Assembly: GCA_021325515.1 (NCBI GenBank)
Contig: JAJPHC010000054.1
Coordinates: forward strand, 1 to 64,000
Source of the DNA: Acidobacteriota bacterium
Lineage (GTDB): Bacteria; Acidobacteriota; Thermoanaerobaculia; Gp7-AA8
Length of the DNA: 64,000 bases
Reading direction: 5' to 3'
Shown here: positions 6,477 to 53,531 of the stretch, piece after piece
Position numbering within the stretch: the first letter of the stretch is position 1
How the letters are laid out: every line of letters begins with the position of its first letter
Position numbers and translations under genes: made by a program
The notes under the pieces: generated by a model
The model's database searches: none
What the model saw: the letters and a program-made list of their open reading frames with translations, nothing else
What the model was told of the DNA's origin: nothing

Positions 6477-8033
6477 CTATTTCCCTTCGGGTACTACCTT
6501 GAAGTCATCCGTGAGTGTGTACTTCGCCTTCTTCACAGTGTCGGTGATGATGACCGTGAGCTTGTAGTCTCCCGGCGCGAAGGAAGCGAGAGGAATCGAG
6601 CTGCCGACGCCGAAGTGACCCGGCACGCCCTTGAGCTCCTGCGCGTCGACGGGACGCGGCGGCGCAGTCATCTGCACGGCCTTGCCCGCGGTCGTCTTGC
6701 CGGTCATGTCGAGCTTCACCTGGACACTCGGCACGTTCTGTTCGTTGAGTCCCGGATTGCGGAGCTCGAAGAAGTACCAGAGCTCATCGGACGGATGGAA
6801 AGTCTTGTCGCCCTTGGGGACGACCTTGATGCCGCCGAACGAGAACGGATCCGTCGGATGCTGCGCGGTGGCGAGAGGATAGACGTTGTTGGAGAGGATG
6901 AGTCCGGAAACCGCCGGCGCATCCTTGTCGAGCGTGCCGGCGAGATTCATCTCCGTCTGCACCATCGACACCGGCTTGCCGTTGAGGGCGAGGCCGAACA
7001 CGCCTTTGTGCTTGCCTGCCGGAAGCATGAGCGACTTGTCGAAGAAGAGATCGTCCTTGGTCACGCTCAGTTTCGCCGGCTCTTCGAACACGGCGATCGG
7101 CTTGCCGTCATCTTCGACGACGCCGAAGAAAGTCAGCTCCGATGCCGGGTCGACGCCTGCGGCCTTCGGCACATAGAGCTCGACCGGAACAAAGTACTCG
7201 CCCTGCGGCGTCACGTACTCACCCCAGGAAACGAAGAGGTTCTTGTACGGATTCGCCTTCGCAGCCTCGAACTCCGAGACGGCTGTCTGATACGCAGGCG
7301 TCTTGAACGTCGTTGCATATGCCGGCGGTGCAGGTGCTGCCGGCGCTGCGGGTGCCGCGGCCTGGGCAGGCGGCGGAGCAGGAGCTGCGTTGAACTTCGG
7401 CGCCGCGGTGAGGTCGGGCTGCACGAGCGCTGCCTTGATCGCCTTCTGCTGCGCGGCGTTCAAGTCGACCTTTCCGCGCTGGACGTGGAACTCGCCCGTA
7501 TTGAACTGATCGAGGAAGTCGATCTGTGCCTTCGGCGCGCCGAACCACTTCTGCGCGCTGTCGCCTTCGTACATCCAGACCTGCTTCGCGCTCTTCTCGC
7601 TCGCGCCGCCGCTGCCTTCTTCGCTGTTGACGCCGAAGCCGCGGTCATCGGTGGTCCCGTCGCGAGGTCCTGTCTTGGAGACCTGCACGTTCTTCGGCGG
7701 CCCGAAGAGGATGAGGATCTTTCCGCGATCGCTCACGGCGCCGCGGGTGCGGCCTGCGGTGAAATGCTCATCGGCGTACTTGACGGCGGCATCGAAGTTC
7801 TCTTTGAACTCGTTGCGCGGTGTTGCCGGCGAGGGATCACGCTTCGCCCAGAAGAGATCAACGAACGCAGCTGCGTCCGCGTCGTTCTTGACCGACTTCC
7901 ACTTCGCCTGCTCCTCGGATGTCATGAGGAACTGAGCCGGACCCTTTGCAAAGTCCGCATATTGCGGCGAAAGTTGCGCGAACGCGCTCACCGCAGCGAT
8001 CGACATCGCGACCGCGATCATTGTTTTCCGCAT
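6477..8033 (-). CDS. GWxTD domain-containing secreted protein (paralogue 1)
   Basis: 518 residues, first gene of the three-paralogue cluster. It has a signal peptide (MRKTMIAVAMSIAAVSAFA) and a GWxTD-family domain with FAKGPAQFLMTSEEQAKW, FWAKRDPSPATPRNE and RGAVSDRGKILILFGPP. A low-complexity Ala/Pro linker (about residues 225-250) precedes a C-terminal domain that aligns with paralogue 2 throughout, including LILSNNVYPL versus LILSNNVYAL and VPGHFGVGSSIPL versus VPGHFGVGTSIPL. GGGAG stands upstream of the ATG. Role unknown. Confidence 0.87.
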   Translation of the reverse strand: MRKTMIAVAMSIAAVSAFAQLSPQYADFAKGPAQFLMTSEEQAKWKSVKNDADAAAFVDLFWAKRDPSPATPRNEFKENFDAAVKYADEHFTAGRTRGAVSDRGKILILFGPPKNVQVSKTGPRDGTTDDRGFGVNSEEGSGGASEKSAKQVWMYEGDSAQKWFGAPKAQIDFLDQFNTGEFHVQRGKVDLNAAQQKAIKAALVQPDLTAAPKFNAAPAPPPAQAAAPAAPAAPAPPAYATTFKTPAYQTAVSEFEAAKANPYKNLFVSWGEYVTPQGEYFVPVELYVPKAAGVDPASELTFFGVVEDDGKPIAVFEEPAKLSVTKDDLFFDKSLMLPAGKHKGVFGLALNGKPVSMVQTEMNLAGTLDKDAPAVSGLILSNNVYPLATAQHPTDPFSFGGIKVVPKGDKTFHPSDELWYFFELRNPGLNEQNVPSVQVKLDMTGKTTAGKAVQMTAPPRPVDAQELKGVPGHFGVGSSIPLASFAPGDYKLTVIITDTVKKAKYTLTDDFKVVPEGK

Positions 8034-29848: not shown

Positions 29849-29858
29849 GCGTTCTGGA

Positions 29859-29879
29859 GTGCGGACGTCCCGTCCGCAC
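29859..29879. repeat. GTGCGGACG-family hairpin, copy D2
   Basis: GTGCGGACG, loop TCC, CGTCCGCAC: a 9-bp perfect stem 10 bases upstream of the S9 peptidase start. A half copy (GTGCGGACG, 29898-29906) follows 19 bases on and ends 3 bases from the yebC stop codon. Confidence 0.8.
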
Positions 29880-29909
29880 CCCGTGCATGATACGAAAGTG
29901 CGGACGGCC

Positions 29910-52061: not shown

Positions 52062-52088
52062 GGAGTGCGGACGCCTCGTCCGCACTCC
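52062..52088. repeat. GTGCGGACG-family hairpin, copy D3 (bidirectional terminator candidate)
   Basis: GGAGTGCGGACG, loop CCT, CGTCCGCACTCC: a 12-bp perfect stem filling the gap between two convergent genes. It directly abuts the sigma factor stop codon at 52089. Confidence 0.85.
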
Positions 52089-52613
52089 TCACCTGCAACT
52101 GCAGTCGAGGCACCCGTGATCCGCGCACGTGCCGCACGACTGTTCGACGCGCCGCCGCAACGCCTCACGGGCACGGAAGAGACGCACACGCGCGGTGTTC
52201 GCGCTGATGTTCGACTCCTCGGCATACTTCGCCGGCTTCACCCCTTCCAGATCGACGCGTGTAATCGCATCCGCGTATTCCGGCTTCAGCGTGCTCACGA
52301 GATTGCGGAGGCACGCGCAGACGGTCTCCATCAACTCATCATCGCGGCGCGGCTCGCTCGCAAATTGCTCGATCGCGCGCGATTCCGCGCCGCGGCGGCG
52401 ATAGTGGTCGACGATCGCGTTGTGCAGCGCGCGATAGAACCATGCGACCGCGGATTCGGCTTCGCGCAGCGACGCCGAATCGAGTCCCCGCATGAACGCA
52501 TCCTGCAGGATGTCCTCCGCGGCCTCCCGCGAGCCGACACGCTTCTCGATGAATGAGAGAAAACGCCGGTGGTTGGCCACCAGCGTTTCCACGACGTCGT
52601 AGGTGGTGCTCAT
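52089..52613 (-). CDS. ECF-type RNA polymerase sigma factor with Cys-rich C-terminus
   Basis: 174 residues from the ATG at 52613. Region 2 is AAEDILQDAFMRGL...AWFYRALHNAIVDHYRRR (about 30-73). Region 4 is VDLEGVKPAKYAEESNISANTARVRLFRAREALRRR (about 120-155), the last part being its helix-turn-helix. The tail carries C160, C163, H166, C168, C171 and C173, a likely metal- or redox-sensing site. There is no adjacent anti-sigma gene; instead the start overlaps the stop of a 22-residue Cys-rich peptide gene. Control by metal or oxidants is inferred. Confidence 0.9.
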   Translation of the reverse strand: MSTTYDVVETLVANHRRFLSFIEKRVGSREAAEDILQDAFMRGLDSASLREAESAVAWFYRALHNAIVDHYRRRGAESRAIEQFASEPRRDDELMETVCACLRNLVSTLKPEYADAITRVDLEGVKPAKYAEESNISANTARVRLFRAREALRRRVEQSCGTCADHGCLDCSCR

Positions 52614-52681
52614 CAGCAGTTGCAACCGGGACCGCAGTCGCACTGCTTCCCGCATCCGCAAGTTGTGCAATTCGTGTTCAT
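52613..52681 (-). CDS. Metallothionein-like 22-residue Cys-rich peptide
   Basis: ATG at 52681, TGA at 52615-52613. Seven cysteines at positions 5, 8, 10, 14, 16, 20 and 22 (C-x2-C-x-C-x3-C-x-C-x3-C-x-C), with Gly, Asn, Asp and Lys between them and no hydrophobic residues, resembling a single metallothionein cluster. A near-perfect Shine-Dalgarno AAAGGAGG (52696-52689) lies 7 bases upstream. The stop overlaps the sigma factor ATG (TGATG), implying translational coupling. Metal binding is inferred from composition only. Confidence 0.75.
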   Translation of the reverse strand: MNTNCTTCGCGKQCDCGPGCNC

Positions 52682-52727
52682 GTGTGTGCCTCCTTTCGCA
52701 CTCCATGACGCACGAGCCGGCATTTCA

Positions 52728-53531
52728 TTACACCGCCATGTTCTCGATCGTCTCGACATCGTCCGCGGAAAGCTCGAAGCCGAGGTCGAGATCCTCGCGC
52801 ATGTGCTGCGGATCGGTGGTGCCCGTCAGCGGCAGCATTCCCACCTGGATGGCGAATCGAAACACGATCTGCGCCGGCGTCCGCCGCAATCTGGCGGCGA
52901 TCGCGCGAAAGCGAGGGCTCTGCAGTTCGGCTGCGTTCGCGGTGAGCAGCGAGAAGCCCTGGTACACGATTCCGTTGTGACGGCAGAAGGCGCGGATCGC
53001 CGCGTCCCATCGCGTCCGCGCAAAGCAGCGGTTCTGCACGAACGCCGGCTTCTTCCTGGCGAACGCGCACAGCATCTCCAACTGATCGAGCGCGACGTTG
53101 CTCACGCCGAGGTAACGGACCGGGAGTTGTTCCATCGCACGCCAGACGGCGCGGTCCACGTCGCCGAGGCCGCGGCCCACCGACGGGCCATGCAGGACAT
53201 ACGAGTCGATCGAATCCAGTTGCAGATGCTGCAGCGAGCTTTCGAACGACTGGCGCACCTGCGGCGCAGGATCGGCGTTTGCGTCGTACGGCAGGCGATG
53301 ATCCTGTCCGCGCATGTACGTGAATTTCGTCTGCACGAAGAGATCCTCGCGGCGGACGAGTCCATCGCGGATCGCGCCGGCGATCGCCGCTCCGGCGCCT
53401 GCTTCGAAGTAGTGCCGCCGCTGGTTAGCCGTATCGATGCCGCGAAACCCGCTTTCGATCGCGAGCCGCGTCAAACGCTCCGTCTGTTCTTCCTTCCATG
53501 CCGTGCCGTACAGAAAATGAGGGTGGCTCAT
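52728..53531 (-). CDS. Aldo/keto reductase
   Basis: About 267 residues from the ATG at 53531 (MSHPHFLYGTAWK). AKR barrel with the catalytic Asp in GFRGIDTANQRRHYFE and a Tyr in the same helix, Lys in FVQTKFTYM and His in YVLHGPSVG. NADP-binding LTGTTDPQHMREDL near the end. Substrate unknown. It lies 46 bases upstream of the Cys-rich peptide gene on the same strand and could be read into it. Confidence 0.88.
   Translation of the reverse strand: MSHPHFLYGTAWKEEQTERLTRLAIESGFRGIDTANQRRHYFEAGAGAAIAGAIRDGLVRREDLFVQTKFTYMRGQDHRLPYDANADPAPQVRQSFESSLQHLQLDSIDSYVLHGPSVGRGLGDVDRAVWRAMEQLPVRYLGVSNVALDQLEMLCAFARKKPAFVQNRCFARTRWDAAIRAFCRHNGIVYQGFSLLTANAAELQSPRFRAIAARLRRTPAQIVFRFAIQVGMLPLTGTTDPQHMREDLDLGFELSADDVETIENMAV

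Follow-up and report, generated by a model that had tools for sequence, protein, structure and literature searches.

In Myxococcus xanthus, CorE and CorE2 (the ECF238 group, formerly ECF44) are the closest described counterparts of the sigma factor analyzed here; like it, they consist of sigma2 and sigma4, carry a CxC motif in the linker and have no anti-sigma factor. According to PMC8999054, the linker CxC is essential in CorE-like sigmas, and the metals that CorE2, a member of the same group as CorE, responds to are Cd and Zn. The tail of CorE contains cysteines at positions 181, 184, 189, 192, 194 and 206, of which C189 is essential for activation by copper; just 11 of the 21 proteins compared there have this residue, several of them with a common copper-gene synteny (PMC3107203). 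As in the loci described below, genes for copper ATPases, HMA proteins and multicopper oxidases accompany relatives of CorE, and autoregulation is putative.

The bacterial metallothioneins SmtA/BmtA (PF02069) and MymT are about 55 aa in length, and the copper metallothionein of Neurospora crassa consists of about 25 aa, including 7 Cys. MymT is a mycobacterial copper-protective metallothionein that belongs to the RicR copper regulon (PMC10141476). Short cysteine-containing ORFs are also known as leaders of regulated genes, as in the mycobacterial polycysteine attenuators and in CruR (DUF2946), a copper-responsive upstream ORF that is far longer than the peptides considered here and contains a single CXXC together with a RAPP arrest motif (PMC9426467).

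We analyzed a stretch of 64,000 nucleotides of an Acidobacteriota bacterium (contig JAJPHC010000054.1, positions 1 to 64,000), hereafter the window, in which a gene for a metallothionein-like peptide directly precedes a CorE-like sigma gene (Table 1). In contrast to this operon, none headed by a metallothionein-like gene was reported for CorE in PMC3107203 or PMC8999054. In the openly licensed literature we found no description of a CorE-like operon that contains a metallothionein-like gene, and an earlier report is possible. Both halves of the locus, the sigma factor and the metallothionein, are of known kinds; as far as checked, the novelty lies in their pairing and in the peptide group.

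Table 1. Features of the peptide-sigma locus in the window
Feature	Position	Strand	Basis
CorE-like ECF sigma factor, 174 aa, linker C99-A-C101, tail C160/C163/C168/C171/C173	52089..52613	-	Pfam; invariant Cys in relatives
Metallothionein-like peptide gene, 22 aa, 7 Cys	52613..52681	-	Sequence; conserved in L035/L072
Peptide TGA with one-base overlap with sigma ATG (52613-52611), TGATG	52613..52615	-	Sequence; overlap not conserved in relatives
Shine-Dalgarno AAAGGAGG of peptide gene	52689..52696	-	Sequence; strong Shine-Dalgarno also 5' of nearly all other peptides
ECF-type promoter TGTAAT-N16-CGTC (TGTAATGAAATGCCGGCTCGTGCGTC)	52707..52732	-	Same element at same 16-nt spacing in 21/21 peptide loci

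The sigma factor and its cysteine motifs

The window sigma matched the Pfam profiles PF04542 (42.3 bits, cut-off 24) and PF08281 (35.4 bits, cut-off 25.7), and its domains are Sigma70_r2 and r4_2 only, corresponding to sigma2 and sigma4. The protein ends in the tail C160-x2-C163-x4-C168-x2-C171-x-C173, with an additional histidine at position 166. Relatives of this sigma share 40-69% identity with it. When it was compared with 24 sigma relatives from Acidobacteriota, Myxococcota, Gemmatimonadota, Planctomycetota, Chloroflexota and Spirochaetota, the linker cysteines C99 and C101, the five tail cysteines and H166 were found to be invariant. The spacing C-x2-C-x4-C-x2-C-x-C is identical to that of C181/C184/C189/C192/C194 in CorE: C160, C163, C171 and C173 match CorE 181, 184, 192 and 194, the four cysteines that do not vary in the published set, and C168 lies at the position of C189. 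The window tail differs from that of CorE in being shorter and in having no counterpart of the sixth cysteine, C206. Based on the linker CxC, the tail cysteine spacing and the domain make-up, the window sigma is, by its sequence features, a member of the CorE-like (former ECF44) sigmas, with putative activation by metal.

The closest named NCBIfam family is SigZ, to which the scores were far under the cut-off (96-98 bits versus 169-212). In the AlphaFold model the helices are arranged as is usual for an ECF sigma factor; the cysteine tail has a pLDDT below 50, so that the model gives no view of the metal site. Separately, CorE-like sigma genes were found on 21 plasmids (hits H1-H21) from Candidatus Manganitrophus, the Roseobacter group and other Alphaproteobacteria, 8 of which are predicted to be conjugative.

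The peptide gene and its occurrence in relatives

The peptide, MNTNCTTCGCGKQCDCGPGCNC*, has the cysteine pattern C-x2-C-x-C-x3-C-x-C-x3-C-x-C, and with seven cysteines among 22 residues and three CxC motifs it has the make-up of the metallothionein class of short, high-cysteine CxC/CxxC proteins, with putative thiolate binding of several soft-metal ions. It is present as a single copy in the source genome. The upstream neighbor on the same strand encodes an aldo/keto reductase and the downstream, convergent neighbor an acyl-CoA dehydrogenase; copper genes are absent among these flanking genes. The peptide gene, its Shine-Dalgarno sequence with a 7-base spacer (cacacac), the seven-cysteine pattern, the TGATG junction and the sigma tail C-x2-C-x2-H-x-C-x2-C-x-C (ending CGTCADHGCLDCSCR) had all been noted in a preliminary description made from the sequence alone, and each is present as described. 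Its statement that no anti-sigma gene is adjacent was borne out by both flanking genes, and its expectation that the peptide gene lies below annotation limits agrees with a gene that is unannotated and without a database family. The description had left out the linker CAC (C99, C101) and the promoter.

Profile searches of Pfam and NCBIfam returned no family for the window peptide at E values up to 10 and none for the peptides of five relatives at E values up to 1; neither PF02069 (prokaryotic metallothionein) nor any NCBIfam metallothionein was matched. The window peptide resembles SmtA/BmtA and MymT in being small and cysteine-rich, and in its putative buffering of soft metals, but differs from them in the lack of a Pfam/NCBIfam match and in its placement in the operon of an ECF sigma factor, presumably under the control of that sigma factor. 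The peptide of Neurospora crassa is more similar in size, cysteine number and CxC/Gly-rich composition, although it comes from another kingdom and has another cysteine spacing. Since a PDB sequence search gave nothing beyond an insignificant match, this likeness would represent convergence at most. At 22 aa the window peptide is half the size of SmtA/BmtA/MymT or less, and the smallest peptides of the group would rank among the shortest known metallothioneins.

A REP-like palindrome (AGTGCGGACGCCTCGTCCGCACT) lies at 52064-52086, between the two convergent genes, with a diverged copy at 29858-29880. The source genome contains 157 copies (≤2 mismatches), which often form clusters with a spacing of about 100 nt; the palindrome is missing from two genomes of the same family.

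The cysteines and reading frame, on whose conservation before orthologous sigma genes the preliminary description had staked its proposal, are both kept in the nearest sigma relative, a genome of another genus of the same family (G001, 69% sigma identity, loci L035/L072). At the equivalent site this genome encodes MNDLDRCTSCGCGNECECGPGCGC, in which 7/7 cysteines are in register with identical spacing, behind a Shine-Dalgarno sequence AAAGGAG and the same aldo/keto reductase gene. Comparison of the two peptide genes gave a dN of 0.24 and a dS of 1.88, including two TGC/TGT switches at conserved cysteines, and dN was also lower than dS in five other usable peptide pairs.

We examined about 50 further sigma loci, mostly with flanks of ±6 kb. 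In this 52-locus set a cysteine-rich ORF lies just 5' of the sigma gene in 21 cases, and 20 further non-duplicate loci of the large family f22, toward which the sample is biased, added 11 more. Across Acidobacteriota, 32 of the 72 sigma relatives have a cysteine-rich ORF of 21-51 aa just upstream, for example MKCENCPCGNNCECVLCVCKSRN (L100), MRLKCDNCPCGSSCTCPICNCASRR (L107) and MTNEIRTLCNCSPCTCSPCSCGCCGGTR (L077). These peptides contain 6-11 cysteines in CxC arrays, the residues between the cysteines vary widely, and a strong Shine-Dalgarno sequence precedes nearly all of them, while the sigma gene often has none. A strict DNA pattern of the window peptide, run over 396 genomes of the phylum, found only the window locus and a tandem-repeat artefact in one genome (G284); because the cysteines are conserved and the intervening residues are not, the sigma factor had to serve as the search anchor. 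One of the 21 ORFs (L106) has its Shine-Dalgarno-led start out of frame with the cysteine-rich frame, by frameshift, sequence error or decay, and is left out of the 20 of the following scan.

A stringent scan detected 20 such ORFs in 18 kb of sigma upstream sequence, and the same search of 1.18 Mb of flanks yielded none. A scan match at L143, with neither a Shine-Dalgarno sequence nor the promoter, was dismissed as a false positive. That the ORF arose by chance as a non-functional frame in a GC-rich intergenic stretch might be suggested by its size below annotation limits and its lack of a database family, but it is extremely improbable given the seven retained cysteines with synonymous switches, the 20-to-0 enrichment, the ribosome-binding site and the promoter. 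The recurrence of such ORFs upstream of orthologous sigma genes and their absence from the flanks put the window ORF beyond chance.

When mapped on the sigma tree, the peptide trait required about 7 changes against a shuffled mean of 27 and is strongly clustered. The first clade with peptides comprises the window, its nearest relative and three genomes of other families, and the second lies within f22. Beside the second clade are three Terriglobia/Bryobacterales loci (L024-L026) in which a metallothionein-like ORF of 41-53 aa lies on the strand opposite to the sigma gene. Peptides of different clades have no demonstrable homology beyond the cysteines. The remaining 40 of the 72 Acidobacteriota loci, and the sampled loci of other phyla, are peptide-less and have the same linker and tail motifs. 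It looks like a widespread metal-buffering gene has been missed by genome annotation.

Two further ORFs were observed. In L097, an ORF with repeated CxxxCxxC (CADSCRKCAESC...) lies 5' of a CorE-like sigma gene at 7472-7606 on the minus strand; by eye it resembles a four-helix copper storage protein (Csp), and a 45-aa piece of it gave no Pfam match. About 3.3 kb 3' of a myxococcotal CorE-like sigma gene (L013, 6312-6470, plus strand) is a 52-aa ORF with 12 cysteines and a strong Shine-Dalgarno sequence, a possible metallothionein outside Acidobacteriota.

Promoter element and predicted regulon

In the window, the promoter and the stop codon of the upstream aldo/keto reductase gene overlap. The element [T/C]GTAAK-N16-CGT is found 5' of all 21 upstream peptides, 49-105 nt before the ATG and with invariant spacing, against 0.025 loci expected from shuffled upstream sequences. 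The same element is directed at the divergent metallothionein-like ORFs of L024-L026. In peptide-less loci it precedes copper-type P1B ATPases, HMA (CopZ-like) proteins, multicopper oxidases or cupredoxin-like proteins encoded beside the sigma gene, and all six P1B ATPases tested from such loci exceeded the TIGR01511 cut-off of 397 bits, with scores of 569-616. Because copper genes beside peptide-less sigmas carry the same element, it is very probably the promoter recognized by the sigma factor itself, and the regulon is very probably a copper regulon. The suggestion of the preliminary description that a metallothionein-like, metal-linked peptide is paired with a cysteine-tailed sigma factor gains from this shared promoter, which ties the pair to copper.

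In the source genome, strict matches to the promoter numbered 7, fewer than in the reversed control (31), and among these only the site at the peptide precedes a recognizable Shine-Dalgarno-led gene at promoter distance. The element is absent, in the part that was scanned, from the single clear heavy-metal P1B ATPase locus encoded there (C61). In this lineage, the sigma factor may act mainly on the peptide gene. The consensus would make CorE-like regulons predictable in several phyla.

The peptide-sigma junction and the proposed function

We consider it likely, from comparative sequence data, that the locus is a copper operon under the control of its own sigma factor, and that the miniature metallothionein encoded first in it serves to buffer metal and to reset the sigma. 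Metal, most likely copper, would bind the sigma factor via the linker CxC and the Cys/His tail and activate it, and the active sigma would transcribe from TGTAAK-N16-CGTC promoters, including that of its own operon. Peptide and sigma would then be made, the peptide probably in excess, and the peptide could chelate the metal through its cysteine thiolates, so that free metal falls and the sigma is switched off. The outcome would be protection combined with negative feedback. Points that speak against this reading are the window's flanking genes, which are not copper genes, the heavy-metal ATPase without the element, the Cd and Zn response of CorE2, and peptides that match no known metallothionein family and share little more than cysteines between clades. 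Such a group of unannotated peptides of 21-51 aa, encoded ahead of about 30 CorE-like sigma genes and connected with a copper regulon through the promoter, offers a testable answer to the question of how a sigma factor without an anti-sigma resets after metal stress. The divergent metallothionein-like ORFs with the same promoter indicate that the product matters in trans.

A more specific role, in which the peptide, besides buffering metal, is a dedicated, anti-sigma-like regulator that competes for or exchanges metal with the cysteine tail, its ratio to the sigma set by co-translation (TGATG here, a hairpin elsewhere), is conceivable and somewhat unlikely. We regard as unlikely that the peptide, instead of being a general buffer, serves the sigma factor as a metallochaperone or a direct partner, giving metal to the tail or taking it away. 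Its strict pairing with the sigma gene, the single genomic copy, the tiny size and the absence of an anti-sigma gene would fit such a partner, and in the CorE study an as yet unidentified Cu(II) metallochaperone was postulated to act upstream of that sigma factor (PMC3107203). However, the many peptide-less relatives with the same linker and tail motifs imply that the sigma needs no peptide, and the free variation between the peptide cysteines is unlike a fixed protein-protein interface.

The preliminary description had proposed translational coupling of peptide and sigma. As a general rule this did not hold: the nearest relative has a 45-nt gap in place of the TGATG overlap, and the other loci, too, lack the overlap, with gaps of 38-70 nt in most cases that usually contain a GC hairpin. 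The hairpins have z scores of about -3 to -7 in most gapped loci and are without U-runs. The window junction has neither a gap nor a significant hairpin, and no Shine-Dalgarno sequence lies directly 5' of its sigma ATG. With an optimal ribosome-binding site on the peptide and none on the sigma gene, the peptide is probably made in excess over the sigma by differing local means.

The hairpins in the gapped loci, together with the position of the ORF just 5' of a sigma gene often lacking its own Shine-Dalgarno sequence, could also suit a cis-acting leader, whose translation would sense cysteine supply or metal at the nascent chain and set sigma expression via the hairpin or coupling; precedents are the mycobacterial polycysteine attenuators (cited in PMC9094748) and the copper-responsive CruR (PMC9426467). 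We consider this reading rather improbable. The divergent gene of L024-L026, with the same promoter, could have no cis effect on the sigma mRNA; the hairpins, when paired against the peptide frame as an attenuator would require, gave no consistent alternative pairing; and the window itself has no hairpin of note. Selection (dN < dS) holds the CxC spacing and the peptide sequence, not runs of cysteine codons. In contrast to the attenuators and CruR, the peptides have 6-11 cysteines in CxC arrays, those listed contain no RAPP-like arrest motif, and divergent arrangements exist, so that they do not share the always 5' position with a terminator, anti-terminator or arrest motif; a cis role may apply at some loci. 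The metal-buffering product remains the reading that we prefer. In one case (L112/L163) the peptide-sigma intergenic stretch is 214 nt long, enlarged by a long inverted repeat (GTCATTCTGAG...CTCAGAATGAC) that was apparently inserted.
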